Positions 801 to 64,000 of a DNA stretch of 64,000 nt are shown here, piece after piece (the stretch's first letter is position 1; each line of letters starts with the position of its first letter). The position numbers and the translations under genes were made by a program. The stretch comes from a virus: IMG/VR virus record IMGVR_UViG_3300021185_003351, positions 108,974-172,973 of that record; one strand, given 5' to 3'. The notes under the pieces were generated by a model, which saw nothing but the letters and a program-made list of their open reading frames with translations, ran no database searches and was not told the origin of the DNA.

Positions 801-802
801 AC

Positions 803-831
803 TTGGATATTACATAATTATTTCTTATTAT
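803..831 (+). promoter_or_regulatory. Promoter upstream of the UV endonuclease gene
   Basis: TTGGAT at 803-808, a 17-base spacer and TATTAT at 826-831, followed by an A-rich leader to the ATG at 843. The same architecture recurs at 12 other sites in the window. Confidence 0.75.
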
Positions 832-842
832 ATAATAAAAAT

Positions 843-1877: not shown

Positions 1878-1879
1878 TT

Positions 1880-4627: not shown

Positions 4628-4648
4628 TTCAATAAAATTAATTATAAT
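4620..4648 (+). promoter_or_regulatory. Promoter overlapping the end of the polymerase gene
   Basis: TTGGAT at 4620-4625 sits in the last codons of the polymerase, with a 17-base spacer to TATAAT at 4643-4648. It would drive the block from 4660 through the DNA-modification and clamp genes. Confidence 0.75.
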
Positions 4649-4659
4649 AAAGAAAAAAT

Positions 4660-5456: not shown

Positions 5457-5457
5457 T

Positions 5458-6645
5458 ATGAAAAAAGTATTTTATTTTGGTTTAGAGCCTTTAAAGGCTA
5501 GATATACATATCAGTTATCTAAAGAATGGATGCCGGCAACATTCCAGCCATATGTTGATGCAGGTAAAATTGAATATATTGATGTAGAAGGAGAATTTGA
5601 TCCAGATCAACAAATTAAAATTGGAGCTGTATTAGATGCAGTAGGTAGAGGTAAGTTTGCTATGAGTCAATGTAGCAACTTTTTAGATATGATGAATCGA
5701 GATGAGGTTAGAGACGGAGATGTTATATTTTTACAAGACTATTGGCATCCAGGTATCGGATCTATTTTGTATGCAGCTGATTTATATGGTATTAAATTGG
5801 AAATATATGCAATGTTACATGCTCAAAGTGTAGATGAATATGATTTTACATATCCTATGAGAACATGGATGCGAGGTTTTGAATTAGGTTTAGACAAAAG
5901 AATGACAGGTATATTTGTAGGATCTAGTATTCATAAAGAACAACTACGAGTAGCTGGATTTGAATCTCCAATACATGTTGTTTCATTACCAATTCATAAA
6001 CAAGCTACATTAGACAAATTGCCTAGTTATAACTCCGGTGCAGAAAGAAAACCATTTGTTGTATACTCTAGCAGATTAGACAAAGAGAAAAATCCATTTT
6101 TCATGATGGAAGTAGCAACAGAATTTCTACAAGAATATACAGATTGGGAATGGCACATAACTACCTCAGGCAAAGAGTTTAGATCAATGTTACCAGGCGT
6201 TATTGATAAATTAAGATCATTAGCAAAACAAGAGCCTAGATTTAAATTATTAGAAGGATTAACAAAAGAAGAATATTATACAGAGTTATCTACTTGCAGT
6301 ATACAGTTTAATTCAGCTTTACAAGATTATGTATCATGGACTGTAATTGAAGCTACTGCTTTTGGAGCAGATATTGTATATCCTAATTTTAGATCATTTC
6401 CAGAATTTATTGACAGTAAAAGAATGTATAAACCATTTAATGTACAATCTGCATTAGATACATTTAGTGATGTAATGCTGTTTCCTAATAGACACAATGA
6501 AATAGTAGATATATCTGATCTAGGTAGACAAATGGAAGGATACATTGTAGCAAATGGTATTAATCAAGAAATTAATGTTTGGCATGAAGCCGAATATTGT
6601 AAAATTTTATTAAATAAAAAAGAGGAAAAACATGAAAATAGATAA
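5458..6645 (+). CDS. GT-B glycosyltransferase inside the DNA replication/modification operon
   Basis: 395 residues. The second half has GT4-like features: VVYSSRLDKEKNPFFMMEVA at about residues 198-217, where GT4 enzymes have their R and K donor-binding residues, and SWTVIEATAFG near 294-304 in place of the E-x7-E element. The first half (for example FLQDYWHPG near 91) would be the acceptor domain. No signal or membrane segment. It stands apart from the glycan cluster, between a QueD-like and a DpdA-like gene and among replication genes. The likeliest inference is that it glycosylates a modified base in phage DNA, as the T4 DNA glucosyltransferases do. A surface-glycan role cannot be excluded. 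Confidence 0.8.
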   Translation: MKKVFYFGLEPLKARYTYQLSKEWMPATFQPYVDAGKIEYIDVEGEFDPDQQIKIGAVLDAVGRGKFAMSQCSNFLDMMNRDEVRDGDVIFLQDYWHPGIGSILYAADLYGIKLEIYAMLHAQSVDEYDFTYPMRTWMRGFELGLDKRMTGIFVGSSIHKEQLRVAGFESPIHVVSLPIHKQATLDKLPSYNSGAERKPFVVYSSRLDKEKNPFFMMEVATEFLQEYTDWEWHITTSGKEFRSMLPGVIDKLRSLAKQEPRFKLLEGLTKEEYYTELSTCSIQFNSALQDYVSWTVIEATAFGADIVYPNFRSFPEFIDSKRMYKPFNVQSALDTFSDVMLFPNRHNEIVDISDLGRQMEGYIVANGINQEINVWHEAEYCKILLNKKEEKHENR

Positions 6646-13886: not shown

Positions 13887-15377
13887 ATGGAGTTACCAAA
13901 GTTAAAAAAAATAGACTCAAACAAACAAAAAAAGAAAAAGATATTATTACTAGCTGATGATTTAAGATTACCATCAGGCATAGGAACAATATCAAAAGAA
14001 ATTGTGTTGAACACAGTACGCCAATATGATTGGGTACAAATTGGAGCAGCAATGAATCATCCAGATGCTGGTAAAATGTTCGACGTTTCAAAAGACGTAG
14101 CAAAAGAATCTGGAATAGAAGATGCAGTTGTTAAAATTATTCCATCAAATGGATATGGTGATAGAAACTTATTATTTGCTGTATTACATCAAGAGAAACC
14201 AGATGCTATATTTCATTTCACAGATCCTAGATATTGGGAATGGTTATATGCTATTGAACATGAAATAAAAACAACATTTAATATTCCAATCATATATTAT
14301 TCAATTTGGGACGATCTACCATATCCAATGTGGAATGCGCCCTTTTATGCGAGCTGTGACCTAATAATGGGAATTTCTAAGCAATCTGATAATATACATC
14401 GAGAAGTGTTGTTACAGAACGATTATGGGGTGTATGACTTTGATGCAGAAGAAAATAAAGAAGATCCTGAATTAGAGTGGGATGAAGTTGTAACAGGATA
14501 TGTTCCACACGGATTAAATCACAACGCTTACAAGACATTATTAGAGTCTGATGAGTTATATGAAAGATTCTATACTGATATAAAAGTGAAAAATGATGTC
14601 GACTTTGTTGTATTTTGGAATAATAGGAATATTAGAAGAAAACAGCCAGGCGATGTTGTACTAGCTTTCCAGCATTTCAGAAACATGTTACCAAAAGATA
14701 AAAAAGATCGAGTAGCTTTATTAATGCATACTCAACCGTCTGATTCAAACGGTACAGATATAAGAGCTGTTTGGAAAAACATAGCACCAGAATGTAAAGT
14801 TATATTTTCTGAAAAGAAATTAACATTACAAGAATTAAATGCAATGTATAATATTTCAGATGTTGTATTAAATATTGCTTCAAACGAAGGATGGGGGTTA
14901 AGTAGCACAGAAGCATTATTATCAGGTACTCCAATTGTTAATAATGTAACTGGAGGGTTACAAGATCAATGTAGATTTGAAGATGAAAATGGAGAATGGA
15001 TTACATTTGACGGTACATTCTCGACAAATCATAAAGGAAGATATAAAAAACATGGAAAGTGGGTAAGACCAGTATTTCCTTCAAATAGATCATGCCAAGG
15101 ATCGCCAGTCACTCCTTATATATTTGACGATCGTGCACAATTCGAGGATGTAGGAGATGCATTATTATATTGGTGGAATATGCCAAAAGAACAACGAGAA
15201 GAATGTGGAGAAGCTGGAAGAGAGTTTTGTTTAAATCATGGATTAACAGCAAAACAAATGGGTGACAAAATGATAGAAATAATGGATTTCTTATTTAAAT
15301 ATCCAAAAAAATCTAGGCCTAAATATACATTAAGAAAAGTAACAAATAAACAATATAAAGAAATGGGAATAGTATGA
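13887..15377 (+). CDS. GT4-type GT-B glycosyltransferase
   Basis: 496 residues. DDLRLPSGIGTISKEI (about 24-39) is the Gly-rich acceptor-side loop of GT4 enzymes. FVVFWNNRNIRRKQPGDVV (about 230-248) carries the donor-binding Arg/Lys, and NEGWGLSSTEALLSG (about 332-346) is the E-x7-E donor site. It would use an activated sugar to extend a glycan. The first residues, MELPKLKK, form a short basic leader that matches the repeated LPKL tail of the next protein. First gene of the cluster. Confidence 0.88.
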   Translation: MELPKLKKIDSNKQKKKKILLLADDLRLPSGIGTISKEIVLNTVRQYDWVQIGAAMNHPDAGKMFDVSKDVAKESGIEDAVVKIIPSNGYGDRNLLFAVLHQEKPDAIFHFTDPRYWEWLYAIEHEIKTTFNIPIIYYSIWDDLPYPMWNAPFYASCDLIMGISKQSDNIHREVLLQNDYGVYDFDAEENKEDPELEWDEVVTGYVPHGLNHNAYKTLLESDELYERFYTDIKVKNDVDFVVFWNNRNIRRKQPGDVVLAFQHFRNMLPKDKKDRVALLMHTQPSDSNGTDIRAVWKNIAPECKVIFSEKKLTLQELNAMYNISDVVLNIASNEGWGLSSTEALLSGTPIVNNVTGGLQDQCRFEDENGEWITFDGTFSTNHKGRYKKHGKWVRPVFPSNRSCQGSPVTPYIFDDRAQFEDVGDALLYWWNMPKEQREECGEAGREFCLNHGLTAKQMGDKMIEIMDFLFKYPKKSRPKYTLRKVTNKQYKEMGIV

Positions 15378-16663
15378 GAAAATGTGTAATATCAAGTCCA
15401 TTAGCAACACAATCGGGATATGGACACCATGCAAGAGAAGTTATAGAAAATATAATTGAACAACGAGGAAAAGAATGGAATATTAAATTGTTATCAATGC
15501 CATGGGGCAATACACCATTAACATTTCCAATATCAAACGAAATGCGAACTAGAGTAGTTCCATTACCATTAACAGAACAACCAGATATATGGATACAAAT
15601 AACAATCCCAAATGAATTTCAACCGGTTGGAAAATTTAATATCGGAGTAACTGCAGTAACCGAAGGCGATATATGTTCAAAAGAATGGATTGATTCTATT
15701 AATAAAATGCAAGTTATCATAGTTCCATCTGAATTTACTAAATCAGTATTAACAAAAACTGCAGAAAAACATAATATTGCAATTTCGACAGAAATACATG
15801 TTATATCAGAATATTTTAATAAAGATATATACAATAAAAATAATAGAGCTGAATCAATTGATTTGAGTGAAGTACATGAATCATTTTGTTATTTGTTTGT
15901 AGGACATTGGCTTCAGGGATCATTAGGAGAAGATAGAAAAAATATAACTGGATTACTTCACAATTTTTTAGAAACATTTAAAAACAAAGAAAAAACTCCA
16001 GGATTAATATTAAAAACTAGTTCTGCAACATACTCTGTTACTGACAGAAGTAAAATGGAACAATATATTAATTCAATTCGTGACTTATTTCCTAAAACTG
16101 CTAAACTTCCAAATATATATTTATTACATGGAGATTTATCTGACAATGAAATGAATTCATTATATAATCATTCCAAAGTTAAAGCAATGGTTTCATATAC
16201 TAAAGGAGAAGGATTTGGAAGACCTTTATTAGAATTTGCATCTACAGGAAAACCTATTATAGCACCACACTATTCAGGCCAAGCAGATTTCTTAAAGAAA
16301 GAGCATATAGTTGCATTAGCAGGAGGATTAACAGAAGTACATCCATCGGCTAGAAATCAATGGATTATTGAAGGATCTAAATGGTTTACTCCCGATTATG
16401 CATATTCAAAAAAAGCATTAAAAGAAGTACATAAACATTACAGCAAATTTATTCCTGGAGCTAGAGAGCAAAAGAAATTTGTTACAGAAAATTTTACGAA
16501 AATTGCAATTGCTCCTAGTTATACAAAGTTAATAGAATTAATTGAAAGTAGAGTAGTAGAAGGTCCTAGTATGCAGCAATTAAAATTGCCACAGCTTAAT
16601 AAACCAAATCTTAAAACAGTTGAACTTCCTAAGTTAAAATTACCTAAACTAAATAAAGTATGA
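15374..16663 (+). CDS. GT4-type GT-B glycosyltransferase with a repetitive LPKL tail
   Basis: 429 residues. SPLATQSGYGHHAREV (about 8-23) is the N-terminal Gly-rich loop and GEGFGRPLLEFASTGKPII (about 278-296) is the E-x7-E donor-binding block. The last 30 or so residues (about 398-429) are a low-complexity tail of Leu-Pro-(Lys/Gln)-Leu units separated by Lys/Asn, which looks like a docking or tethering segment rather than part of the fold. It overlaps its neighbours on both sides by four bases. Confidence 0.85.
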   Translation: MRKCVISSPLATQSGYGHHAREVIENIIEQRGKEWNIKLLSMPWGNTPLTFPISNEMRTRVVPLPLTEQPDIWIQITIPNEFQPVGKFNIGVTAVTEGDICSKEWIDSINKMQVIIVPSEFTKSVLTKTAEKHNIAISTEIHVISEYFNKDIYNKNNRAESIDLSEVHESFCYLFVGHWLQGSLGEDRKNITGLLHNFLETFKNKEKTPGLILKTSSATYSVTDRSKMEQYINSIRDLFPKTAKLPNIYLLHGDLSDNEMNSLYNHSKVKAMVSYTKGEGFGRPLLEFASTGKPIIAPHYSGQADFLKKEHIVALAGGLTEVHPSARNQWIIEGSKWFTPDYAYSKKALKEVHKHYSKFIPGAREQKKFVTENFTKIAIAPSYTKLIELIESRVVEGPSMQQLKLPQLNKPNLKTVELPKLKLPKLNKV

Positions 16664-28324: not shown

Positions 28325-29242
28325 ATGTTATTAAAGAAAGGATCAAAAGGTCCAGAAGTTAAAAAACTACAAGAAGCATTAGGATTATCTGCAGATGGAA
28401 TATTTGGTGGAGGTACTAAATTAGCTGTAATAAAATTTCAATCAAATAATGGATTAAATGCAGATGGTATAGTAGGACCTTCAACATGGGAAGTTATTGG
28501 TATCGATACAGATCAAACTAGTGCAGCAGAAGAATCAGAATATACAACTAAAGACGGTTTAGTTATAGATAGAGAATATCTAGATAAAGACGAATATGTA
28601 AGAGATTATGGTAAAATAGAACCATTAGGATTCTTTATTCATCACACTGCAGGATGGGATAATCCTTATAAAACAATACGTGGATGGAACCGAGATACAA
28701 GAGGTAGAGTAGCTACACAATATTGTATTGGCGGCACTAATGTAAAAGGTAAAGCAGCACCCCATGACGGACAAGTAGTAGAATGTTTTCCAAATAACTA
28801 TTTAGGATGGCATTTAGGTAAAGTAGGTGGATTTGATATTTCTAAATTTTCAGGAGGTGTTGAATTAAATAATTTTGGTTATTTAAAAAAGAAAGATGGT
28901 AAGTATTATACTTATGTTAACACGGAAGTAAAACCAGAATATGTTTGTGATTTAGGATATAAATTTAGAGGCCATCAATATTGGCACGCTTATTCCGACA
29001 AACAAATAGAAAGTTTAAGACTGCTTATTTTACATTTAAAAGATATTTATCCTAAAATGGACTTAGAAAATGGTATTCCTAAAATGTTAAAAGAAGGAGT
29101 ACACCCAAAAGAAGCATTTGAATTTAATGAAGATGCTTATAATGCAAAACAATTTGGGTTATGGTCACACACATCTGTAAGAAAAGACAAGTTTGATTGT
29201 TTCCCTCAACCAGAATTAGTAGAAATGTTAAAAAATATATAA
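28325..29242 (+). CDS. Endolysin: peptidoglycan-binding domain plus N-acetylmuramoyl-L-alanine amidase
   Basis: 305 residues. Residues 1-60 are a peptidoglycan-binding domain (KGSKGPEVKKLQEALGL, then DGIFGGGTKLAVIKFQ and DGIVGPSTW). Residues about 95-260 are an amidase-2 domain: GFFIHHTAGWDNP (about 99-111) with the zinc His pair, YCIGG (about 137-141), and GWHLGK (about 161-166) near the second metal ligand. No signal peptide, so it needs a holin, which fits the membrane protein 59 bases downstream. It cuts the amide link between MurNAc and the stem peptide. Confidence 0.9.
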   Translation: MLLKKGSKGPEVKKLQEALGLSADGIFGGGTKLAVIKFQSNNGLNADGIVGPSTWEVIGIDTDQTSAAEESEYTTKDGLVIDREYLDKDEYVRDYGKIEPLGFFIHHTAGWDNPYKTIRGWNRDTRGRVATQYCIGGTNVKGKAAPHDGQVVECFPNNYLGWHLGKVGGFDISKFSGGVELNNFGYLKKKDGKYYTYVNTEVKPEYVCDLGYKFRGHQYWHAYSDKQIESLRLLILHLKDIYPKMDLENGIPKMLKEGVHPKEAFEFNEDAYNAKQFGLWSHTSVRKDKFDCFPQPELVEMLKNI

Positions 29243-29300: not shown

Positions 29301-29552
29301 ATGGCCTTTAGAGACATGTTTAAAGACGATAATGATATTAATGAGAAAAATGTAGTTGGATTTGCTGCATTTGCAGTAATGGTAATATTTGCAATTGCAG
29401 ATATTGTTACTGGATATATGGGAGAACCATTACATGTAAATGAATTCATATATAATTCGTTTTTATGGATTACCTTAGGTAGTTTTGGTATAGCTGAAGC
29501 CGGTAAGATATTAGGAAAATCAAACTCAGATGATGATCATGAAAATATTTAA
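29301..29552 (+). CDS. Two-helix membrane protein, holin candidate
   Basis: 83 residues from the ATG at 29301, chosen because AAGGAAG lies at the right distance; an ATG at 29265 would add 12 basic residues. Two predicted membrane helices (about 20-37 and 48-66) are separated by a short loop, with charged ends and an acidic tail, as in class II holins. It follows the endolysin and overlaps the adhesin gene. Holin is an inference from size, topology and position. Confidence 0.6.
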   Translation: MAFRDMFKDDNDINEKNVVGFAAFAVMVIFAIADIVTGYMGEPLHVNEFIYNSFLWITLGSFGIAEAGKILGKSNSDDDHENI

Positions 29553-32500
29553 GTATTTATTAATTACTCTATTTAGTCTTATTGTATACAATAGTAATGC
29601 CCAAAATTTAACATTCGGTTGCACAGATCCAGCTGCAGCTAATTATGATCCAAATGCAGACCAACCATTAGAAGGATTAGTTGAAGCATCATCATGTAAT
29701 TTTGTTTGGTTCCAAAATTATGTAGGAATCAATGAAGCATTTTATAATGATTACAGTAGCGAATTTGCAGTTGGTACTAAAATTACATTTGCTGGACAAG
29801 AATATTGGATAGATGCTGTAGCATTTCATAGCAATTGTAATGCTGGAGTAGCGTTAGTATATGTTGCTAATTCTCCTGGCCAAGCAGATGGCAATGAATG
29901 GACTATAGGTGGAATGCTTAACGGTCCTATCTTTTCAGGATCTCCATGGAGCATAACAGAATGTTTTTATAATCCTGGCTGTATGGATGATGATTATATA
30001 GAATATGATCCAAATGCAGATTGGGATGATGGTAGTTGTCAAACTTTAAAAGTATTCGGATGTACAAATCCTAATTCTATTAATTATAATCCTTGGGCTA
30101 ATACTGATGACGGTTCTTGTATAGCTGATTTAAATTGTGGATTTGATTCAATAGAAATTAAAGTAACAATAAAAGTAGATAATTGGCCCGGCGAAACTAG
30201 TTGGTATTTACAACATACCAATCCAACTCAAAATTTAACAGATACAGTTTTTTATGCTCAAAGAGGAACTTATGGTTGGGGACAACAAGGACAAACAATT
30301 GTAACTAAATTTTGCGCTCCAGCTGGTCCAAATCATTTATTACAATTTGTATTGCAAGATTCATATGGTGATGGTATAAGAGGTTCTCAACCACCAACTA
30401 ATAGTGGATTTTGTTTAGTTGAAAATATGTCTTGTCCGGATACTATATTTTATATGTCTGAAGGAGATGCCGATTTTGGTTATATAACTACTAGTGACCC
30501 AAATTATTGGAGTCAAAGAGAACAATATTGCGGTGGACCTCTAATAGACGGATGCACAGATCCATCATATCAAGAATATGATTCATTAGCAACAAATAAT
30601 GATGGCAGTTGTCAAAATCTTCATGTATATGGTTGTATGGATACGTCGGCAATTAATTACAATCCTAATCATACTGCGTGGGATAATATTGAAACATGCG
30701 AATATAGAATTATATTAGAAGACGATGGTGGAGATGGTTGGGGAGAAAGCTTTGTTGGAATTAAACAAGGAGATTCTTTATGGGACTTTAGATTAGGTCC
30801 TGGTACATATGTAGATACATTTTATTTACATTTTATAGTAGAAGATAATCCAAGCCTACAAGAAGAAGTTGAACTGTATTATTTTGAGATAGGTGACGGT
30901 CAACAAAATTCTCAACAAATAGATATTCAAACAATACAGAACTCAGTTAAAATAGAAAATGATTATGGTATTTTAATACATGAAGGAAATTTTCCATGGG
31001 CTAATGGCAATAAGCTCAAAAAGTTTAATACTGTAGCAGATGTTTATACCGCAATACCATTTTGTGGGTATGTATGTACTCCTAAGATATATGGTTGTAT
31101 GGACTCAACATCATTAAATTATAATCCAGACGCCAATGTTGATAATGGTACCTGTATTCCTATTATATATGGATGTACTAATCCATTAGCATTTAATTAT
31201 GATTCAACTGCAACAATAGATGATGGAAGTTGTGTTGCCGTAGTAAATGGGTGCATGGATCCAAATGCATGGAACTATAATTCAAATGCTAACACAGATG
31301 ATGGAAGCTGTATTTATCTAGGATGTACAGATGTAACTGCTTGTAACTATGATTCAATAGCAAATGTTGATAATGGTGGTTGTATGTACCCTGCTCAATA
31401 TTATGATTGCAATTACGTTTGTTTAGAAGACACAGATGGAGATGGTATTTGCGATTCATTAGAGATACCAGGATGTATGAATCCACTTTCAATAAATTAT
31501 AATCCTAATGCAACTGATGACGATGGTTCATGTATACCTTATATATATGGTTGTACCGACTCAACCGCATTTAATTATAATCCATTGGCAAACACAGATG
31601 ATGGTAGCTGTATTCCTATTGTAACGGGGTGTACAGACCCTACCATGTTCAATTATGATCCAAATGCTAACACAGATAATGGTAGTTGTATACCTATTGT
31701 ATACGGTTGCACAGACCCAACATCATTTAATTATAATCCTAATGCTAACACAGATAATGGATCTTGCGTTCCATATATTTACGGCTGTATGGATTCAACT
31801 TCATTGAACTATGATCCAAATGCAAATGTTGATAACGGAACTTGTATACCATTTATTTATGGTTGTATGGATAATACAATGTTTAATTATGATTCAACTG
31901 CAACTGTTGATAATGGCTCATGTATACCATTTATTTATGGTTGTACTGATTCGACAGCATTTAACTATGATCCTTTAGCTAATACCGATAATGGAACTTG
32001 TATTCCTGTAATATATGGTTGTACAGATCCAAGTGCATTTAATTATAATCCTTTAGCTAATACAGAAGATTTTAGTTGTATACCTGTAATATATGGTTGT
32101 ACAGATTCATTAGCTGTAAATTATGATCCTGCAGCAAATGTAGATAATGGTTCTTGTATAACTGCAGTTCCTGGTTGTACAGATCCAAATGCTTATAATT
32201 ATAATCCTAATGCAAACGTTCCTGACTCAGCTTCATGTTTATATGATGCCGGTTGTATTACCGGACCAGGTAATCCATATTGGTTAAATGATGATTGCTA
32301 TGCTTGGGTCATTAATATAGATCCTTATTGTTGTACGGTAGGATGGGATGCGAATTGTCAAAACACATATGACTATTGTGCTGCTAATAGTGGATGGGTT
32401 GGTATTGAAGATTTGGTATATGATGGAGCAGTAGCAATTTATCCAAATCCAACCACCGGAGAAATAAATATAGCAAGTTCAAGATTTAAAAATATTATTG

Positions 32501-32646
32501 TAACTATATATTCAGTTTCCGGTCAGATAGTTGTTAATGAAACAAATGATAATGTTATTGATATAAGTCACTTAGAAGATGGAGTTTATTTTATGAACGT
32601 GAAAGTAGGGGAATTAACTTATATTAGAAAGGTAATCAAACAATGA
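29539..32646 (+). CDS. Secreted Cys/Asp-repeat adhesin-like protein with type IX secretion sorting domain
   Basis: 1035 residues from the ATG at 29539 (an upstream ATG at 29530 adds three). A signal peptide (KIFKYLLITLFSLIVYNSNA) is followed by 19 repeats of the form GC(T/M)D-x4-NY-(D/N)-P-x-A-N-x-D-(D/N)-G-(S/T)-C, the acidic DDGSC unit seen in many flavobacterial surface proteins. Most of the second half is uninterrupted repeats linked by IYGC. A Cys-rich block (DPYCCTVGWDANC) precedes the end. The last 75 residues (AIYPNPTTGEINIASS, ending GELTYIRKVIKQ) are a type A C-terminal sorting domain of the type IX secretion system. It would be carried across the outer membrane by host machinery and anchored on the cell. 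Function on the surface is unknown. Confidence 0.88.
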   Translation: MKIFKYLLITLFSLIVYNSNAQNLTFGCTDPAAANYDPNADQPLEGLVEASSCNFVWFQNYVGINEAFYNDYSSEFAVGTKITFAGQEYWIDAVAFHSNCNAGVALVYVANSPGQADGNEWTIGGMLNGPIFSGSPWSITECFYNPGCMDDDYIEYDPNADWDDGSCQTLKVFGCTNPNSINYNPWANTDDGSCIADLNCGFDSIEIKVTIKVDNWPGETSWYLQHTNPTQNLTDTVFYAQRGTYGWGQQGQTIVTKFCAPAGPNHLLQFVLQDSYGDGIRGSQPPTNSGFCLVENMSCPDTIFYMSEGDADFGYITTSDPNYWSQREQYCGGPLIDGCTDPSYQEYDSLATNNDGSCQNLHVYGCMDTSAINYNPNHTAWDNIETCEYRIILEDDGGDGWGESFVGIKQGDSLWDFRLGPGTYVDTFYLHFIVEDNPSLQEEVELYYFEIGDGQQNSQQIDIQTIQNSVKIENDYGILIHEGNFPWANGNKLKKFNTVADVYTAIPFCGYVCTPKIYGCMDSTSLNYNPDANVDNGTCIPIIYGCTNPLAFNYDSTATIDDGSCVAVVNGCMDPNAWNYNSNANTDDGSCIYLGCTDVTACNYDSIANVDNGGCMYPAQYYDCNYVCLEDTDGDGICDSLEIPGCMNPLSINYNPNATDDDGSCIPYIYGCTDSTAFNYNPLANTDDGSCIPIVTGCTDPTMFNYDPNANTDNGSCIPIVYGCTDPTSFNYNPNANTDNGSCVPYIYGCMDSTSLNYDPNANVDNGTCIPFIYGCMDNTMFNYDSTATVDNGSCIPFIYGCTDSTAFNYDPLANTDNGTCIPVIYGCTDPSAFNYNPLANTEDFSCIPVIYGCTDSLAVNYDPAANVDNGSCITAVPGCTDPNAYNYNPNANVPDSASCLYDAGCITGPGNPYWLNDDCYAWVINIDPYCCTVGWDANCQNTYDYCAANSGWVGIEDLVYDGAVAIYPNPTTGEINIASSRFKNIIVTIYSVSGQIVVNETNDNVIDISHLEDGVYFMNVKVGELTYIRKVIKQ

Positions 32647-35271: not shown

Positions 35272-37815
35272 ATGAGTAATAAATCATATCTAAAAAAATT
35301 AGTTTTCGAAGAATATAAAAAACAATCTAAGAAATTGTATCTAGAAAAGTTAATATTAGAAGAATATCAGAAGATTATACAAGAACAAACAGATACAGAA
35401 AAATTATCTCGTAACACTTTAGAGTTATGGTGGAATAAGGAAAATTATGGCAAATTCGATCCACCGGTGGATGCTAAAGGAGAACAAGCAGAAGAAGGAT
35501 ATGATATTTTAATGAATGAGTTAAACGGAGAATGGCCAGCTTATCCAGGATCCCAATGGAAAAAACAACCTGGAATTAGAATTATTCTCGCAAAAGACTT
35601 AATTAAATATTTAGGATTGACCCCTAAAATAAAAAAACAATCAAAAGGATTTGAAGTTACTCCGGGAGAAAAAGATGCTCCTGCATTAAAAATAGAATCA
35701 AAAGATATTATATTCTATCCTAATGGTATATGTACTTTAGAGTCGACTGTAGAGGATATGACAACCCAAAATGAGGTGCATTGGTATATAAGTCCAGATG
35801 AAAATGGAAAGGAAGTAATTACAATAAATCTTTCTAGAAATCAAGAAGATAACAAAGTTGTAGGAGCTCTTTATAATCGTAGCGGAAATATTATATTAGA
35901 GAAGCCAGAAGAAATTTCATATAAAAATTATACATTTGATAAAGTACAATCCGGATTAGATTGGGCAGGAATGGCCCCGGTGATAGGAGCACCTATAGAT
36001 GTACTTAACACAATAGGATATATTTTTAGAGGGAAATACTATTCAGCTCTTTTCTCTGCGTTAGGTATAGTACCGTTTATTGGAGATTCTTTTAGTGCTT
36101 CAACTAAAGGATTAAAAAAGTTTATAAAAGCCACCGGATTAAGTAAAGCAAAATATAATAGATTAGCAAAAGATGCATTTTATGGAAATGTTGATTCAAT
36201 ACAAGAATTTTATGAGCTAATATCTAAAAGTAAAAAGACTCGTGAGGCCATAACTGGTGTTACTGGAATCTCTAGAAGAAAATTTCTACAAACAATTAAA
36301 AAATATACGGATCCAGTTGAAATATCATTAAAAGAAATAAAAGATTTATTAAAATCAGACAAGTTTTTTGTTCCAGATGCTATAGAAAATTCAGCTAGAA
36401 AAGCAGTTGATTTATTTGAAAAATTTCTTTTTAATAATAAAAAAGCTTTAGAAAATTTAGATGAATTATATGACGCACAATTAAAATTTAAAAAATTTAA
36501 AATTCGACCTAGTATAGAATTTCTAGACGCTACTAAAAAACTAGCAACAGGAAACATGAAGTATCTGCAGCAGATTATGAAAAAGTTACCAACTGCAGCT
36601 CAATTAATAGCTGGAATAAAAACTGGAGGATTATCTGCAGGTGCAGAAGCTGGTATTAGAGCAGTATTTAAAGGAGTATATAACCCTGAGAAAATAGCTA
36701 AATTAAGTAAATTATATAAAAGGGAAGTTTTTGGAAGACTTGCTAAAAATGATCAAGCAATAGAAGTAATAGGTAAACTATTACCATATGAAGCATTTAA
36801 AGGGATATTTCAACCAGAAGAATTAAGAAACATAGCAACAAAATATTATCAAAAAAATCCAAAAGCTTTACTCTCAGATTTTCCAAATGGTTATAAAGAA
36901 TTACAAGCAAGTATGAAAATTGAAAAAAATCTTCAAAAGCTTTTTTCAAGATCTGATTTTTGGAAGAATTCTGATCTAATAGATCAATTGAAAGACACTT
37001 TGTCCTCCGGTAAAAGTGGCACTGACAAATTATTGCAAATGGCTGCTGAAAGTAAGAATCCTGCATTACAGGTATTTTTTAATAATAAACAATGGCAATT
37101 TGAAAATATATTTAAAGGAAGTTTGGATTTTTTCTTTAATTTTGGTACTGAATATAAAACATTTTTATCAAATTATGTAAAGCTTCGAAAGAATTTCTTT
37201 GGTTGGAAAACCTTAGACATATGGTGGAATGAATTAACAGAATTAGCAGGACGTCTTAATCTAGGACGAGCAGAAACAGCAGATCCAGATTCTATAATTG
37301 TTCCTATTTTATTTGGCATGCTAGATATTACACAAGGTAAACCGCTCGGGACTACAAAAGATAAAATAGGTAGAAGTAGCAAACTATCTATTCAGATATC
37401 TGACATTCTAGATACGTGGTTTGAATTTTTTACAGGACGATTAAACACCATACCTGGATTTTCACAACTTGGAACATATATTTATGATTTTATATACAAA
37501 TATGGAATAAAACAACTAGTTGATGATCCAGATGGAGGAATTAAATTTAGACAATTTAAAATACCAAAAGAATCATACAACTATTTGTATAATGAAGCAA
37601 AAAATGCAAATCCAGGAAAACCTATTACAGTCGATGATATGATGAAAATTTTTGATTCTAAACATTGGACTAATATTCCACCTGAAATAAAACCACAATT
37701 TGAACCATTTAGAACAACTCTTCAAAAGGCTTTACAAGATCAACTTATTTATAATCCTCCTCCGGAGGAAGAATATGAAGATCAAAAAGATTCAATGAAA
37801 AATTATCAACGATAA
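35272..37815 (+). CDS. Large protein with a capsid-targeting-like leader, candidate internal virion protein
   Basis: 847 residues, no signal peptide. The first 38 residues are a basic helical leader with three short Leu/Ile-rich segments each ending in Glu (LVFE, LILE, IIQE), like the sites cut by the T4 prohead protease. Residues about 228-283 contain GLDWAGMAPVIGAPIDVLN and ALGIVPFIGDSFSAS, a hydrophobic hairpin with PIIGD-like turn seen in pre-toxin regions of polymorphic toxins and in some phage proteins. The rest is helical and Lys-rich. Size, late promoter and leader suggest it is packed in the head and perhaps ejected with DNA; enzymatic activity is not visible. Confidence 0.65.
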   Translation: MSNKSYLKKLVFEEYKKQSKKLYLEKLILEEYQKIIQEQTDTEKLSRNTLELWWNKENYGKFDPPVDAKGEQAEEGYDILMNELNGEWPAYPGSQWKKQPGIRIILAKDLIKYLGLTPKIKKQSKGFEVTPGEKDAPALKIESKDIIFYPNGICTLESTVEDMTTQNEVHWYISPDENGKEVITINLSRNQEDNKVVGALYNRSGNIILEKPEEISYKNYTFDKVQSGLDWAGMAPVIGAPIDVLNTIGYIFRGKYYSALFSALGIVPFIGDSFSASTKGLKKFIKATGLSKAKYNRLAKDAFYGNVDSIQEFYELISKSKKTREAITGVTGISRRKFLQTIKKYTDPVEISLKEIKDLLKSDKFFVPDAIENSARKAVDLFEKFLFNNKKALENLDELYDAQLKFKKFKIRPSIEFLDATKKLATGNMKYLQQIMKKLPTAAQLIAGIKTGGLSAGAEAGIRAVFKGVYNPEKIAKLSKLYKREVFGRLAKNDQAIEVIGKLLPYEAFKGIFQPEELRNIATKYYQKNPKALLSDFPNGYKELQASMKIEKNLQKLFSRSDFWKNSDLIDQLKDTLSSGKSGTDKLLQMAAESKNPALQVFFNNKQWQFENIFKGSLDFFFNFGTEYKTFLSNYVKLRKNFFGWKTLDIWWNELTELAGRLNLGRAETADPDSIIVPILFGMLDITQGKPLGTTKDKIGRSSKLSIQISDILDTWFEFFTGRLNTIPGFSQLGTYIYDFIYKYGIKQLVDDPDGGIKFRQFKIPKESYNYLYNEAKNANPGKPITVDDMMKIFDSKHWTNIPPEIKPQFEPFRTTLQKALQDQLIYNPPPEEEYEDQKDSMKNYQR

Positions 37816-37823
37816 ATCATTTA

Positions 37824-38198
37824 ATGATTAAACTAAAAGACATACTAGAACAAGATTTTCCAGGACCATTTGGAAAGGAACATGATTATTCAGATTATGG
37901 AGGACCATGGGGTACAGGACATCATCATAAGACAGATTTCAAAAAAGGACCTGGTAAGAATCCAACTGATTCAATTAGCTCTGATAGAGGAGAAGAAGAA
38001 AAGGAAGATGATGATGAAACCGGATATAAAGCAGAAAATTTTGCAGACGGAAAAAATCCAGGCAGAAAAGGATTATCACAAAGAGTTGGAATACCAAAAA
38101 ATGCTACTATAGCTCAATTAGAAAAAGCAGCGAAGGCAAAAGGTGAAAAGGGGAGATTAGCTCGATGGCAATTAAACATGAGACGAGGTAAAAAATGA
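37824..38198 (+). CDS. Small basic protein with capsid-targeting-like leader
   Basis: 124 residues. It starts MIKLKDILEQ, matching the leaders at 38834, 39447 and 63966. The middle is Gly/His-rich (GGPWGTGHHHKTDF) then strongly acidic. The last 45 residues (GLSQRVGIPKNATIAQLEKAAKAKGEKG...RRGKK) are basic and helical, as in small DNA-binding phage proteins. I infer an internal head protein; the biochemical function is unknown. Confidence 0.65.
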   Translation: MIKLKDILEQDFPGPFGKEHDYSDYGGPWGTGHHHKTDFKKGPGKNPTDSISSDRGEEEKEDDDETGYKAENFADGKNPGRKGLSQRVGIPKNATIAQLEKAAKAKGEKGRLARWQLNMRRGKK

Positions 38199-38821
38199 TA
38201 TTATCAAAAAATAAATTAACTTCAACTGCTACATATACCAATCAAACATATGATATTGATACATTATTAGATAGTGATAGTGTGAATTTATTTGATCAAA
38301 ATGGATATCATTTAACTAAAGCTGAACAAGTATATCTACAACCTAATGGATATAATCCTATAGAACGTAGACATGAAGACTGTTTAAGATATGATTGGTT
38401 TATATGGGATAAACGAGACGGAGCTCATATCAACCATTCAGATTTATTTGAAAGAAAAGGATTTTCAGAATCCGCATTAGAACAATTACATAAGTATGCA
38501 AAACGAAATCCAATGCTATATAAATTAATTAAAATGAAACCTAAATGGGGAATTGATATATCAATTGATTATGTGTCTCCCGACGCAGTATTTGAAGTGT
38601 TTCATTATGAATGGGATTCATTTGAGTATAACGCTATTGAAGATAAAAAATTTCAAATTGAAGAATTTATATTATCAAAAGATTGGGACGATGTTGCAAA
38701 AACATTATGGAATAAAAAAGATGAATGGTATGATTTAGACTTTTTTGAACAAACAAAATGGAGAACAGATTATTTTAATTTGTCGCCAGAAAAATTTAAA
38801 AACGTTATTTGGACTAATTGA
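38195..38821 (+). CDS. Protein of unknown function in the virion block
   Basis: 208 residues, soluble, rich in Trp, Tyr and Asp, with no signal peptide and no leader of the type on the flanking proteins. GYNPIERRHEDCLRYDWFIWDKRDG (about 50-74) and the repeated W/D pattern near the C-terminus are the only landmarks. It overlaps its upstream neighbour by four bases. Function unknown. Confidence 0.7.
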   Translation: MILSKNKLTSTATYTNQTYDIDTLLDSDSVNLFDQNGYHLTKAEQVYLQPNGYNPIERRHEDCLRYDWFIWDKRDGAHINHSDLFERKGFSESALEQLHKYAKRNPMLYKLIKMKPKWGIDISIDYVSPDAVFEVFHYEWDSFEYNAIEDKKFQIEEFILSKDWDDVAKTLWNKKDEWYDLDFFEQTKWRTDYFNLSPEKFKNVIWTN

Positions 38822-38833
38822 TATTTATATAAA
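38820..38833 (+). promoter_or_regulatory. Late-type promoter motif ahead of the Cys-rich virion-block protein
   Basis: GATATTTATATAAA abuts the ATG at 38834, leaving almost no leader, so transcription from it would give an mRNA with little or no 5' untranslated region, or would serve the genes further down. Confidence 0.5.
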
Positions 38834-39298
38834 ATGAATAAGTTAAAGAACATACTAAAAGATACTATATTAGAATCAAAAGATAGTTATAACACTCCAG
38901 CTGCAGTAGCTAAAGAAAAGTCAATTGGTAGTAAAAAAGTTAAACCAGAAGATGCAATAACAGATTTAGATTTAAATACATTAAATAGAAATCAAACCAT
39001 TAAAGAATATAGTTATGGACCATTAAATCCAGACGACAAAAAAGGATCTGAACCATTTTGGAAAGATAAAGCAGATTTATGGAATACGACTGTTGAAGCT
39101 GCAAAGGAGTCTAGATGTTCTAATTGTGGAGCATTTGATCAAAAAAAATCAACATTAGCTAAAATAGAAAAAGCTATAGGTTCCGATGGTAAAACAATTG
39201 TTAAAAATGCCAATATTGGATTCTGTGAGTTTTTCTGGTTTAAATGTGCAGGAGCAAGAAGTTGTGATGCATGGGTTGGAGGAGGCCCAATAAAATGA
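38834..39298 (+). CDS. Cys-rich phage protein with capsid-targeting-like leader
   Basis: 154 residues. The leader MNKLKNILKDTILESK fits the family of start peptides in this block, with a possible cut after ILE. The second half has RCSNCGAFDQ (about 94-103), GFCEFFWFKCAGARSCDAWVGGGPIK (about 129-154): five Cys spaced as in a metal or iron-sulfur site and a C-terminus that I recognise as a recurring phage motif. Function is not established. Confidence 0.65.
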   Translation: MNKLKNILKDTILESKDSYNTPAAVAKEKSIGSKKVKPEDAITDLDLNTLNRNQTIKEYSYGPLNPDDKKGSEPFWKDKADLWNTTVEAAKESRCSNCGAFDQKKSTLAKIEKAIGSDGKTIVKNANIGFCEFFWFKCAGARSCDAWVGGGPIK

Positions 39299-39450
39299 AA
39301 TCTAGAGGTTTAGGCGACGATATAAAAAAAATTACATCTGCTACAAGATTAGATAAGTTAGCAGAACGAATTGCAGAACTTACAAATAGTGATTGTGGAT
39401 GTGATAGAAGACAAGAAAAATTAAATAAAATATTTCCTTATAAGAAATGA
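39295..39450 (+). CDS. Small conserved phage protein with CxC motif
   Basis: 51 residues: a helical start (KSRGLGDDIKKITSATRLDK), then SDCGCDRRQEKLNKIFPYKK. The GLGDxIxKxT...CGCxxRxxxLNKxFPYKK pattern recurs in phages of this type. It overlaps both neighbours by four bases, which decides the start at 39295. Function unknown. Confidence 0.7.
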   Translation: MKSRGLGDDIKKITSATRLDKLAERIAELTNSDCGCDRRQEKLNKIFPYKK

Positions 39451-39983
39451 TATTACTCAAAAACATATTAAACGAACAAGTAACTCCATCAGTACCAAAT
39501 CCACGTAAACAGAAAATATTAAACACAAAAGACTCTGTTTCTAAAATAGCAAACAAGATTGATCAATTAGGCTTAGGAGCTCCTATCGCATCATTTTTAA
39601 TTCGTATTGCATCAGTTGAATCATGTTATGGATTAAATAAAAGAGCTGGTAATAATATATGGCAAGTAGATCCTATAGCTTTTAAAGACACACAAAATTT
39701 ATCATCGCATCCAGGATTAAAATCAAAATTTAAAATTTTAAAAGACAATGGAATCGATTGGCCAAAATTAACATATACTCAAATTAAATCAAAGCCATTA
39801 TTAAATGCTATAGCTGCTAGATTATATATAGGAAATATGCCAGGAGATATTCCAAAAGATTTAAAAGGTCAAGCTAATTATTGGAAGAGTAATTATAACA
39901 CATCATCTGGTGGCGGATCTACATATGAGTTTATAAAAAAGAATTCTGGAGATGGTACATCTGGATGTATCGATTACGTATAG
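39447..39983 (+). CDS. Virion lytic transglycosylase-like protein with capsid-targeting-like leader
   Basis: 178 residues. The leader MILLKNILNEQ precedes a lysozyme-like domain: FLIRIASVESCYG (about 50-62) gives the catalytic Glu, NNIWQVDPIAF (about 69-79) the second conserved block and AARLYIGNMPGDIP (about 121-134) followed by QANYWKSNYNT (about 140-150) the third, as in GH23-type transglycosylases. No signal peptide. With the leader, it may be packed in the head and used to open the peptidoglycan during DNA entry, distinct from the endolysin at 28325. Confidence 0.7.
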   Translation: MILLKNILNEQVTPSVPNPRKQKILNTKDSVSKIANKIDQLGLGAPIASFLIRIASVESCYGLNKRAGNNIWQVDPIAFKDTQNLSSHPGLKSKFKILKDNGIDWPKLTYTQIKSKPLLNAIAARLYIGNMPGDIPKDLKGQANYWKSNYNTSSGGGSTYEFIKKNSGDGTSGCIDYV

Positions 39984-41589: not shown

Positions 41590-42300
41590 ATGGCATTTCA
41601 TCATTCACCGAGAATAGTATCAGACCAACTAGTTTTTGCGTGGGATATTCCTAACAAAAAGTCATATCCTGGTTCTGGTACTTCCATAACAAATTTAATA
41701 TCTGGTTCTGAAAATCTTATAATAAATAATGCTACTATACAATCTGGTTCAGTAAATGGCAATGGATCTGTTGTAATGGATGGTGCTGGAGATTATTTAT
41801 CTTTTTCTGCAACTACTTTTGCTGATATAATAACTATTTCAATATGGCATAAAGCTAGAAGAAGTGATGGGACATCATCCGATCCGTACTCGTATGGATA
41901 TTTGTTTGCAAATAGTTCAACAGGTCAAGGATTTGCATTTAGTGAAGGCGGAACATCTGGAAATATAGATCCTGGAATGTATTATTATTATCCTGGTGTT
42001 GGCGGAGGCGGAAGTTCAACCGCAATATCAACAGCCGTTGGACAAAATAATGTATGGGGTAATGTTACAGCTGTAATTAACACAACAGCTAATCAAGTAA
42101 AATTTTATTTTAACGGAGTGTTAAATCAAACTACGTCGTTAACAATGAATAATACTAATACATATAATCAGTTAGGTAGATATCTAACTAACAATTGGTA
42201 TATAATAGGAGAGTTAGCAGCATGTTATGTTTATAACAAAGAATTATCAGCTGCAGAAGCTTTACAAAACTATAACGCATTAAAAGGGAGGTTCGAGTAA
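41590..42300 (+). CDS. LamG/concanavalin-like virion protein, copy 1
   Basis: 236 residues of a single jelly-roll lectin-like domain. Landmarks shared with the next two genes are a start VSDQLVFAWDIPNKKSYPGSGT, a central strand pair with ITISIWHKAR, KFYFNGVLN, and the end YNKELSAAEALQNYNALKGRF. Such domains bind glycans and are frequent in marine phage virions as fibre or capsid decorations. It carries a Gly-rich loop (GVGGGGSST) not in the other copies. It is coupled to copy 2 by TAATG. Confidence 0.8.
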   Translation: MAFHHSPRIVSDQLVFAWDIPNKKSYPGSGTSITNLISGSENLIINNATIQSGSVNGNGSVVMDGAGDYLSFSATTFADIITISIWHKARRSDGTSSDPYSYGYLFANSSTGQGFAFSEGGTSGNIDPGMYYYYPGVGGGGSSTAISTAVGQNNVWGNVTAVINTTANQVKFYFNGVLNQTTSLTMNNTNTYNQLGRYLTNNWYIIGELAACYVYNKELSAAEALQNYNALKGRFE

Positions 42301-43004
42301 TGGCAGTTAATTATTCAACAGCTCCGATAGTAACAAATGGATTAGTTTATGTATTGGATGCAGCAAATATTAAAATGTATCCTGGGTCTGGAACTACAGT
42401 AACAGATACTATTAGTGATACTTCTGGTACATTTACTGGTGCTGGATTTTATGATACTTCAACATTCGCAACTCCAGTATTTTCTTTTGATGGAAGTAAT
42501 GATTATCTAACATATACTGATAGTACTATTCCAACACTAGGATCAGCGTTAACATGCGGGTTATGGATCAAATCATCTGATTCGCAAGCTGAATTATTTT
42601 GTACATTTGAAACAGCTAATCCGTATAAAGGATTTTTATTTGGTATTGGATTTTCTGGAAATAATGGGAAATTAGATCTATACTGTTCACCAACAGATGG
42701 ATCCGGTGGATCAGCAGCTGCTGATACAGGTGTAGCTGTCAATGATAATACAATAAAATATGTTGTAGTTACTTATGATGGATCTAATGCAAGATTTTAT
42801 CATGATGGAGTATTATCATCAACAGTAAGTTTTACAAAAACAGCAGGCGCTTCAACTCAACCATTTAGAATAGGAGCTTCAAATAATTCCCCTGCTAATA
42901 GAATTTATTCAGGATTGATGGGTCCAGGACATATATACAATAGAACATTGACAGATGCAGAAGTACTTCAAAACTATAACGCAATGGCCGGGAGGTTCTC
43001 ATAA
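42300..43004 (+). CDS. LamG/concanavalin-like virion protein, copy 2
   Basis: 234 residues, paralogue of the flanking genes: VTNGLVYVLDAANIKMYPGSGTTVTD at the start, LTCGLWIKSSD in the middle, RFYHDGVLSS, and HIYNRTLTDAEVLQNYNAMAGRF at the end. Tandem divergence suggests three glycan specificities or a hetero-oligomeric spike. TAATG coupling on both sides. Confidence 0.8.
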   Translation: MAVNYSTAPIVTNGLVYVLDAANIKMYPGSGTTVTDTISDTSGTFTGAGFYDTSTFATPVFSFDGSNDYLTYTDSTIPTLGSALTCGLWIKSSDSQAELFCTFETANPYKGFLFGIGFSGNNGKLDLYCSPTDGSGGSAAADTGVAVNDNTIKYVVVTYDGSNARFYHDGVLSSTVSFTKTAGASTQPFRIGASNNSPANRIYSGLMGPGHIYNRTLTDAEVLQNYNAMAGRFS

Positions 43005-43669
43005 TGGGAGTAATAGGCGGAAATGAAATAATACGTAACGGATTGATACATTATTATGATCCTGCAAATACAAGATCATATCTTAGTTCCGGTACTACTC
43101 TAACTGATTTAGCAGGTAGTGACAATGGAACAATAAGTGGCGCTACATTTGATGTTAATAACCATGGAAGTCTTTATTTTGATGGAGCAGATGATATTAT
43201 AACCTTTGGAACAGAATTAAATTTAGGTATTACACAAACAATATCATTTTGGCTAAAACAAAATAGACCAACAAATGCTGAAAGTATACTAGGAAATTCT
43301 CTCGCAAATAATTATTTATTCTATAGACAATCAGCTGGAATATATTTTAGATCTGGAACAGGATATTGGGTATTTTCTAATACAGATACATTAAACAATT
43401 TTCAGGTTACTGATTGGATTAATGTTTCTATAGTCAGAATAGCATCAAACCAGACCAGATTTTACATTAACGGAACATTAACTTCAGAAGGAACAAGAAA
43501 TATAAGTGCAGGGACAAATGGCAATACTTTACTTAAATCTATAGGAGCAGAACCAGACCTTACATATGATTTTCAAGGATATATATCAATGTTCCTTATT
43601 TATAATCGAATTTTATCAGATGCTGAAGTATTACAAAATTATAATGATACCAAATATAGATTTGTATAA
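43004..43669 (+). CDS. LamG/concanavalin-like virion protein, copy 3
   Basis: 221 residues, third paralogue: IRNGLIHYYDPANTRSYLSSGT at the start, QTISFWLKQNRP in the middle, RFYINGTLTS, and LIYNRILSDAEVLQNYNDTKYRF at the end. It is the shortest copy. A late-type motif follows before the next gene. Confidence 0.8.
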   Translation: MGVIGGNEIIRNGLIHYYDPANTRSYLSSGTTLTDLAGSDNGTISGATFDVNNHGSLYFDGADDIITFGTELNLGITQTISFWLKQNRPTNAESILGNSLANNYLFYRQSAGIYFRSGTGYWVFSNTDTLNNFQVTDWINVSIVRIASNQTRFYINGTLTSEGTRNISAGTNGNTLLKSIGAEPDLTYDFQGYISMFLIYNRILSDAEVLQNYNDTKYRFV

Positions 43670-43979: not shown

Positions 43980-44606
43980 TTGCAACCTACTGCAATACAT
44001 ATACCCGGTAAGTATAGAACTATAGTTACAAAATTAAGCAATTTAATTTTAGACACTCTAATTGAAGTTCCAACTATATCTACAGAATATAATAATATTT
44101 TATTTGTAGAAGTTCGAAACTCAAATATTCCATTACATTTTTATTTTGGTTTACAAACTAGATATGGAGAAACATATGTAAATGGAGATGCATACAATCC
44201 AACCGAGTCTACTAGCAAACAAATTCCTTATATTGAAATAACTATTCAAACTGATAATAGGAAACAAGATAGAAGTTTAATAGCTATGAAGTTACGAAAT
44301 TCAATTCGACATGAGCTAGAACATTTAACTCAAAGTGGATTAAACACATTACCAGGCAAGTATTTACCAGACGATCAAACAGCTAGATCATTAGCATCAA
44401 GAAAAGATTATTTGTTGTTAGAAAAAGAAGTTCCGGCAATGTTAAAAGGATTACATTTTCAAGCAACAAAAGAACGAAAACCTTTTAATGAAATAGTTAA
44501 TAAATATTTAAATGATACATATTTATTAAAAAAAGAAATTGATGAAGTTAAATCAATTTGGATACAAAAATCTAAGGAGTTAAACCTATGGAAGAATATG
44601 ACGTAG
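43980..44606 (+). CDS. Phage zinc metallopeptidase-like protein
   Basis: 208 residues from a TTG at 43980; no ATG exists upstream of the conserved region, and the next in-frame ATG (near residue 103) would cut into it. NSIRHELEHLTQSG (about 107-120) holds the HExxH zinc motif. The N-terminal IHIPGKYRTIVTKL resembles a conserved start in this phage family. Predicted to cleave protein, possibly in virion assembly or at entry; substrate unknown. It overlaps the next gene by 19 bases. Confidence 0.7.
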   Translation: MQPTAIHIPGKYRTIVTKLSNLILDTLIEVPTISTEYNNILFVEVRNSNIPLHFYFGLQTRYGETYVNGDAYNPTESTSKQIPYIEITIQTDNRKQDRSLIAMKLRNSIRHELEHLTQSGLNTLPGKYLPDDQTARSLASRKDYLLLEKEVPAMLKGLHFQATKERKPFNEIVNKYLNDTYLLKKEIDEVKSIWIQKSKELNLWKNMT

Positions 44607-44938
44607 AAAATTATCAAGATATAAAAGAATTTATACAATTCATAAAAGAATATAAAGCAGATGTAAATGAAGCTGAGTATAGAGGTAGAAAAGTTAAACT
44701 TGGAAAACCAATGCGTGGAGATGTTAAAAAGTTTAAAGTTTACGTTAAAAATCCAAAAGGAAACGTTGTTAAAGTTAATTTCGGACATGGCGGAACATCA
44801 GCAAAAAAAGCCGGACAGAAAACCATGAAGATTAGAAAAAATAATCCAGCAGCTCGTAGATCATTTAGAGCAAGGCATCGATGCGAAACACCTGGCCCTA
44901 GGCATAAAGCTAGATATTGGTCATGTAGGAAATGGTAA
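44588..44938 (+). CDS. Conserved basic phage protein (YRGRKV family)
   Basis: 116 residues. The N-terminal third is acidic; then YRGRKVKLGKPMRGDVKKFKVYVKNPKGNVVKVNFG (about 31-66), an Arg/Lys-rich segment and a C-terminal RHRCETPGPRHKARYWSCRKW. I recognise this arrangement as a conserved domain of marine T4-like phages, often in the capsid gene region. Function is not known. Confidence 0.7.
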   Translation: MEEYDVENYQDIKEFIQFIKEYKADVNEAEYRGRKVKLGKPMRGDVKKFKVYVKNPKGNVVKVNFGHGGTSAKKAGQKTMKIRKNNPAARRSFRARHRCETPGPRHKARYWSCRKW

Positions 44939-48978: not shown

Positions 48979-49269
48979 ATGATAAAAAAAGAATGGTTTT
49001 GGATGTCGACCTATAAAAGACAAAAAGAAGATCATTGCCATTATTCGGGACTACCATCCCCAATGGCATATAAAAATAAACAAGATAAAATAACAATTAT
49101 GAAAAAATCAATTTTAAAATGGTACCCAATTGGTATCGCTTTTATTTGCCTACTATATTCAGTAGGATTAGGATTATATGGTAACACAGCTGAAGCTATG
49201 TACTCAGCACATTGGCCAGGAACAATATTATTATTTAGCATAGCAATTAATCAAATTAAAAGACAATGA
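48979..49269 (+). CDS. Small membrane protein of unknown function
   Basis: 96 residues. The N-terminus contains KKEWFWMSTYKRQKEDHCHYSGLPSPM, followed by two membrane helices (about 47-64 and 76-91). A second ATG at 49099 would give a 56-residue protein beginning just before the first helix; the full frame is open, so I keep the longer one with doubt. It overlaps the next gene by four bases. Confidence 0.55.
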   Translation: MIKKEWFWMSTYKRQKEDHCHYSGLPSPMAYKNKQDKITIMKKSILKWYPIGIAFICLLYSVGLGLYGNTAEAMYSAHWPGTILLFSIAINQIKRQ

Positions 49270-49517
49270 GTATAGTGTTTTTCGGAGTTGGTTTTTTATT
49301 GTTTTCAGTTTATTTAATATTTCTTATTTGGAATATAATACATAATGGAAATAAACAACAAGAAGAAAATTACCCAACATTACAGGATAGTGTAATAGAC
49401 ATGGATGGTATAGGCAATCAAGGGCGTATACCTACTCACACAACAATTAGAACTAAAAAAAGAAAAACTAAATCTTATGGTAACAAAGAGAGAACAAAAG
49501 GATGGAAGAGTAATTAA
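49266..49517 (+). CDS. Single-pass membrane protein of unknown function
   Basis: 83 residues with one N-terminal membrane helix (VFFGVGFLLFSVYLIFLIWNI) and a cytoplasmic tail ending in basic residues (KKRKTKSYGNKERTKG). Overlaps the next gene by 41 bases. No family. Confidence 0.6.
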   Translation: MSIVFFGVGFLLFSVYLIFLIWNIIHNGNKQQEENYPTLQDSVIDMDGIGNQGRIPTHTTIRTKKRKTKSYGNKERTKGWKSN

Positions 49518-50019
49518 TCTTCCAGTATATGTTAGTAATCATATAACAGACGAAATGATTAGATTGTTTCTAGAAACCGGAAAGGCAATGTCGGTAAATG
49601 CCGGAAGAATATCAGAGCAAGTAGTACTACCGTATTTAGAAACTCATTTTAAATGTAAAGGAGAAGTAGTTGATGCAGATGGATATGATCATTTATTTGT
49701 TAATGGTATTAAAAATGAACATAAAAAATTAGTTATAACTGGCACTAAGACAACAGCTATGGCAAAGAGATTAGGAAAGAATAAAGAAGGAAAGTGTGAC
49801 ACTATCTCATTTCATCATCCAGCACAGAATGCTATATATGTTATAAATGCAGAAACGTTTTATAAACATGTATCATTGAATCGTGATAAATATTGTAATA
49901 CATATGACGTAATGTTTTATCGTGATATGCAATTAGAAGGCAAAGGTAAACGAAAAGAAAGTTATACAAGAAATAATACAGAAATGTTATTGAAGTATGC
50001 AACTAAATTAGAATTATAA
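49477..50019 (+). CDS. Putative PD-(D/E)XK-like nuclease
   Basis: 180 residues. EVVDADGYDHLFVNGIKNEHKKLVITGTKTT (about 62-92) has an Asp at the end of a strand and an E-H-K one strand later, the spacing of the restriction-endonuclease fold. A helix before it (AGRISEQVVLPYLET) and the later ISFHHPAQNAIYVINAETF fit such a core. Identification is tentative. It could process DNA or act as a restriction-like enzyme. Confidence 0.5.
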   Translation: MVTKREQKDGRVINLPVYVSNHITDEMIRLFLETGKAMSVNAGRISEQVVLPYLETHFKCKGEVVDADGYDHLFVNGIKNEHKKLVITGTKTTAMAKRLGKNKEGKCDTISFHHPAQNAIYVINAETFYKHVSLNRDKYCNTYDVMFYRDMQLEGKGKRKESYTRNNTEMLLKYATKLEL

Positions 50020-63965: not shown

Positions 63966-64000
63966 ATGATTAAATTAAAATCACTATTATCGGAAAAATA
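63966..64000 (+). CDS. Start of a protein with capsid-targeting-like leader (partial)
   Basis: The first 11 residues, MIKLKSLLSEK, match the leaders of the genes at 37824, 38834 and 39447, with a Leu-x-Glu at the expected cut site and a late-type motif upstream. The window ends inside the next codon, so the rest is unknown; that codon could even be a stop. Confidence 0.5.
   Translation, partial: MIKLKSLLSEK

Follow-up and report, generated by a model that had tools for sequence, protein, structure and literature searches.

The window analysed here, a stretch of 64,000 nucleotides, comprises positions 108,974-172,973 of a T4-like phage record of 172,973 bp. The rest of the record was retrieved as well and about 200 genes were called. 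The tagged genes described first are located on the plus strand. The gene at 35272-37815 codes for a protein of 847 amino acids with a tandem leader of the IIxEE class in residues 1-38 (35272-35385), in which VFE↓E, ILE↓E and IQE↓Q are candidate cuts (arrows mark putative cleavage positions). The central segment that follows is hydrophobic, and the remainder is helical. For this protein the search of related loci and INPHARED gave no hits, and distant syntenic relatives only were found among the fetched loci (L018, L104 and L276); they begin at the second leader copy, e.g. MNIEQIILEEYSKLQEQ. Peptidase or lysozyme domains were also guessed for these relatives, but the guess was unsupported by Pfam. 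The adjacent gene (37824-38198) encodes a cargo of 124 amino acids behind the leader MIKLKDILE↓Q (37824-37850), and a homologue of its C-terminal half was found in another locus. The gene at 38195, within the same interval, has no leader. A Cys-rich cargo of 154 amino acids (38834-39298) follows the leader MNKLKNILKDTILE (38834-38875), which would be cut before a serine. Homologues of this cargo carry at least five other leaders (MKLLDILNE, MKLSKLISE, MKLKHLALE, MDNFNLRKYLAE and MIKLQDILLGE). The protein of 178 amino acids encoded at 39447-39983, a probable muralytic enzyme, starts with MILLKNILNE↓Q (39447-39476). Finally, the gene of a 182-residue cargo with the leader MIKLKSLLSE↓K (63966-64000) is cut by the window end and continues as record 103-651.

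The leaders at 35272, 37824, 38834 (MNKLKNILKDTILES), 39447 (MILLKNILNEQ) and 63966 were all present as given in the initial annotation, which had treated them as one family. Two of them need qualification. The 847-residue protein does have a leader, but of a different, tandem type (YLKKLVFEE...YLEKLILEEYQKIIQEQ). The leader at 63966 is real, but it belongs to the same gene as the leader at record 103, because the two ends of the record share 137 bp that differ at one position.

The product of the gene at 39447 had been described as transglycosylase-like. It matched phrog_3108 (E=3e-10), a PHROG of unknown function; no Pfam or PDB match was obtained, the search of related loci was empty and the single-sequence structure had a pLDDT of 34. 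The locus of the window has syntenic counterparts in L018, L104 and L276, with a 115-residue membrane-type protein, a large IIxEE-tagged protein and a variable tagged block. The slot of the 39447 gene is occupied there by a PF07486 hydrolase (L018), a PF00959 lysozyme (L104) and a PF18013 lysozyme (L276), each behind a MIKLK[DN]IL leader. By synteny, the 39447 product is probably a muralytic enzyme, whereas the specific label rests on the PHROG of unknown function together with this synteny. An untagged amidase-type protein with PG_binding_1 and Amidase_2 domains (28325-29239) is probably the lysis endolysin. Since the record has this separate enzyme, the tagged enzyme need not be the lysis enzyme.

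Leaders with the consensus M-I-K-L-K-x-[IL]-L-x-E were found at the start of about 12 unrelated proteins of the record. A strict regular expression, M-x(1-3)-[LIV]-[KR]-x-[ILV]-[LIM]-x(1-2)-E, was run over 197 genes of the whole record and matched nine of them. The expected number was 0.04 when estimated at internal positions and 0.16 with shuffled N-termini (at most two in 1000 shuffles). Counting near variants, 12 genes have a MIKLK[DN]IL-type start, which answers the whole-genome scan proposed in the initial annotation. They begin at record positions 103, 788, 1252, 1948, 2502, 3566, 4943, 28554 and 97328 and at window positions 37824, 38834 and 39447; seven fall in record 103-6148. Comparison of the leader codons gave 219 identical, 142 synonymous and 101 non-synonymous pairs. 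The frequent synonymous differences point to constraint or selection on the peptide. Besides the tandem leader of the 847-residue protein, the record contains two leaders of the type MKR[FI]GTKNLxE (98023, 98349) and one IIREHLLE (4237).

The head module of the record includes terminase, portal, S77 prohead protease, an acidic gp22-like scaffold (record 51003) and the gp23 capsid protein (record 52048; PF07068, E=4e-77). The protease (record 49239-49865) was identified with PF03420 (E=9e-33) and phrog_207 (E=3e-56). Its residues aligned with H85 and S140, the catalytic residues of T4 gp21, are invariant in the alignment. PF04586 was considered as the protease family and was absent on search; the protease of the record is S77. 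Motifs of the type [LI]-x-E are also located near the N-termini of the protease, its neighbour (49862), the scaffold and the capsid protein. Thus, both the prohead protease gene and its putative sites in core proteins, which had been suggested as points to look for, were found. Judged by the capsid protein, the nearest cultured relatives are Flavobacterium phage immuto (57% identity), Microcystis phage Mel-JY01 (55%) and Rhodothermus phage RM378 (38%). As the closest isolate infects Flavobacterium, the host is likely a member of the Bacteroidota. In Mel-JY01 a gene annotated as ribosomal protein S21 (15185-15412) sits between the prohead protease and scaffold genes.

The occurrence of the leader beyond this phage was examined in IMG/VR with the first eight residues only, MIKLK[DN]IL, so that residue 10 was outside the pattern. 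At least 131 matches were obtained, at least 122 of them at the start of an ORF of at least 60 amino acids. After removal of the leader these ORFs formed at least 67 unrelated clusters. This agrees with the former statement that the tagged cargos are otherwise unrelated: at least 67 such cargos stand behind leader and [LI]-x-E in viral contigs. Among the matches listed, 57 of 67 clusters have glutamate as residue 10, with a background of 7%. A permuted pattern gave 117 stretches in the whole viral collection, 11 at such ORF starts, and glutamate in none of ten clusters. For bacterial and archaeal genomes, 30 likely starts with MIKLK[DN]IL were obtained and glutamate at residue 10 in two of them (p=8e-14 for viral versus genomic). 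Both S77 and gp23 were detected in all nine leader contigs of at least 100 kb, compared with three of ten controls (p=0.003) or four of ten with a weak match (p=0.011). Where S77 is missing from a shorter leader contig, so is gp23; such contigs are probably fragments. The accompaniment of S77 by gp23 was dropped as a discriminator, since nearly all control contigs show the same pairing. No strict MIKLK leader was found in the control contigs, including those positive for S77 and gp23; hence the MIKLK form marks one subset within the T4-like phages.

Further tag classes were identified in immuto, which carries FDLKKFLVENKLTxNSxLLxE, KKSQLRQIIKE and KKQILSEQFxRMQxLAGIITE. Tags of the FDLKKFL type were found on 58 unrelated cargos, ILAENMRRFGTKNLxE on 53 and N-terminal RMQKLAGI on 22. 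All three further classes end in [LI]-x-E, with glutamate enriched at the expected positions. Tags differ between homologous cargos: fifteen cargo clusters hold more than one tag class, and some of these cases reflect compound leaders. The motif MQKLAGI was present in 113 ORFs, in 81 of them at the extreme C-terminus and in 25 N-terminal. Of these 81 ORFs, 73 are directly upstream of gp23 and are thus scaffolds. Hence, the RMQKLAGI tag class has the same sequence as the C-terminal end of the gp22-like scaffold. Scaffolds of leader contigs have the tail R-phi-x-x-L-A-[GN]-[IL], with NRFTELINYNK as one weaker example; the tail of the present phage is NRWKKLAGLLS, and those of Mel-JY01 and RM378 agree with this type. 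A few other proteins have the MQKLAGI motif C-terminal or internal, beside cleavage motifs. Non-scaffold proteins with RMQKLAGI or KMQKLAGI at or near the C-terminus were observed in four loci. The MIKLKxIL class showed weak likeness to the scaffold tail (permutation p 0.015-0.045; 0.0006 for the variant MKKLENIL), and no match was obtained for the FxLKKFL and IIKEE classes.

Judged from these comparisons, the leaders are very likely short N-terminal head-targeting propeptides resembling the capsid-targeting sequences of T4. The resemblance, already stated in the initial annotation, is supported by S77, scaffold and gp23, by the [LI]-x-E rule of T4, by the at least 67 cargos and by the exchange of tags. 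T4 sequences were used as yardstick: ipII and ipIII (MKTYQEFIAE↓A), Alt (MELITE↓L), gp21 (MNEPQLLIE↓T), gp22 (MLKEQLIAE↓A) and gp23 (FLTE↓A). T4 gp21 removes nine residues of its own and 65 from gp23, which fits the positions in the T4 sequences (PMC9958956). As in T4, about ten N-terminal residues ending in [LI]-x-E precede unrelated cargos, S77 protease, scaffold and gp23 are present in the genome, and the cargos are diverse and variable (PMC3012670, PMC9958956). In contrast to T4 with its roughly four cargos, there are 12 or more, muralytic enzymes are among them, and one of several tag classes has the same sequence as the scaffold tail; the C-terminal end of T4 gp22 is IVSVYAKVASRF. The simplest account would be a T4-like capsid targeting with more cargos and diversified tags. 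Some observations speak against head targeting: the tag, MIKLK[DN]ILxE plus three other classes, differs from MKTYQEFIAE of T4, and the strict form is absent from the control contigs with S77 and gp23. So does the weak or missing likeness of the other classes to the scaffold tail.

In the proposed course, the leader would dock an otherwise unrelated cargo into the scaffold core during prohead assembly. Once the prohead has been completed, the S77 protease of the phage itself would cut after [LI]-x-E and the leader would be lost. The cargo would stay in the head beside the DNA and later pass into the host by ejection. Several classes of tag may serve this one purpose. We infer the binding partner from the class that copies the scaffold C-terminal tail and is flanked by cleavage motifs; docking probably uses the binding site of this tail. 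For RMQKLAGI-tagged cargos the identity strongly suggests docking where the scaffold tail docks, and the remaining classes may use the same site.

It is rather unlikely that the tags mark core or assembly factors of the prohead, comparable to gp67 and gp68 of T4, which enter the prohead, are destroyed there by the protease and never reach the host. Several leader genes are positioned between the protease and scaffold genes, and homologues of the protein encoded beside the protease (record 49862) are tagged, as would fit such factors. However, most cargos are encoded outside this block and differ from phage to phage. Many of them are enzymes (lysozymes, M23, NUDIX, exonuclease, ATP-grasp), and most show one cleavage motif close to the N-terminus rather than many. 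Less probable still is that the leader is an amphipathic helix with no link to the head, by which proteins are held at the host membrane or at some other structure of the cell. This would suit the basic and hydrophobic start and the poorly ordered leader segment in the model of the kinase-like cargo, but it explains neither the fixed glutamate at residue 10 nor the association with S77 nor the tag class identical to the scaffold tail. Similarly improbable is a translation or mRNA element or a trace of recent duplication, with no targeting role of the peptide. In its favour, the DNA of the leaders is rich in A and some codons are common to several of them; against it, the cargos are unrelated, many codon pairs are synonymous, the kinase-like family keeps its leader at 54-65% overall identity and the glutamate is missing from bacterial genes that share the eight residues.

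The head-targeting reading was also compared with other phages. The phiKZ-like giant phages (SPN3US with gp245 protease) have propeptides cut after glutamate by the prohead protease and ejection proteins carried in the head (PMC10052503). Their propeptides comprise mostly 111-254 residues (two have 20-24) and are undescribed as a common portable tag (PMC10052503), whereas the tags found here have about 10-25 residues and are shared between cargos. Immuto and Mel-JY01 are closer, with an annotated prohead protease and the scaffold tails RWQKLAGIIK and RMKKLAGIVK. Immuto also has four or more tag classes, but not the strict MIKLK form; mainly the classes FDLKKFLVENKL, KKSQLRQIIKE and RMQKLAGI are present. 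The tags are unmentioned in the immuto annotation. Neither proteomics of immuto nor the tag strings were found in the literature searched, with most subscription papers outside its coverage. How core proteins come to be localised in the prohead of T4 is described as mysterious in a recent review (PMC9958956). The tag class that has the sequence of the scaffold tail offers a concrete and testable answer to this question. The chances appear about even that a large group of uncultured T4-like phages targets the head by scaffold-tail mimicry, using portable copies of a docking peptide (usually N-terminal, sometimes C-terminal or internal) bounded by S77 motifs, and that the tags are a readable code marking the injected proteome including wall-degrading enzymes. 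They could allow the listing of injected, otherwise 'hypothetical' proteins from sequence alone in T4-like phages without isolates.

Several other cargos of the record gave indications of function. The model of the cargo at record 28554 had a pLDDT of 69 and weakly matched aminoglycoside phosphotransferases and kinases (E=8e-4, TM 0.32); as the model is moderate and the matches are weak, this cargo is named kinase-like only. The cargo at record 2502-3569 (355 amino acids) has a zinc-ribbon start common to several other phage proteins and a weak DUF4347-like match (E=0.02), which is a lead only. The same holds for the OmpA match of the cargo at record 4943 (E=5e-4, below the cut-off). Further cargos in viral contigs are an M23 peptidase, NUDIX, an RNase_T exonuclease, a RimK-like ATP-grasp and a P-loop kinase or zeta-like protein.

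Furthermore, a very basic protein of 116 amino acids (44588-44938) with a possible VNE↓AEY cut was observed in the window; homologues in two other loci are fused behind MIKLK leaders, and it is possibly a DNA-binding internal protein. A protein of 1038 amino acids (29530-32646) has a signal-peptide-like start, many repeats of the type GCTDPxAxNYDPxAxxDDGSC and a C-terminal stretch resembling a Bacteroidota secretion sorting domain. Three neighbouring paralogous LamG-like proteins (236, 234 and 221 amino acids) with the ends NYNA/DxxxRF are encoded at 41590-43669, and further paralogues were found at record 65442-68351 and 79963-81413.
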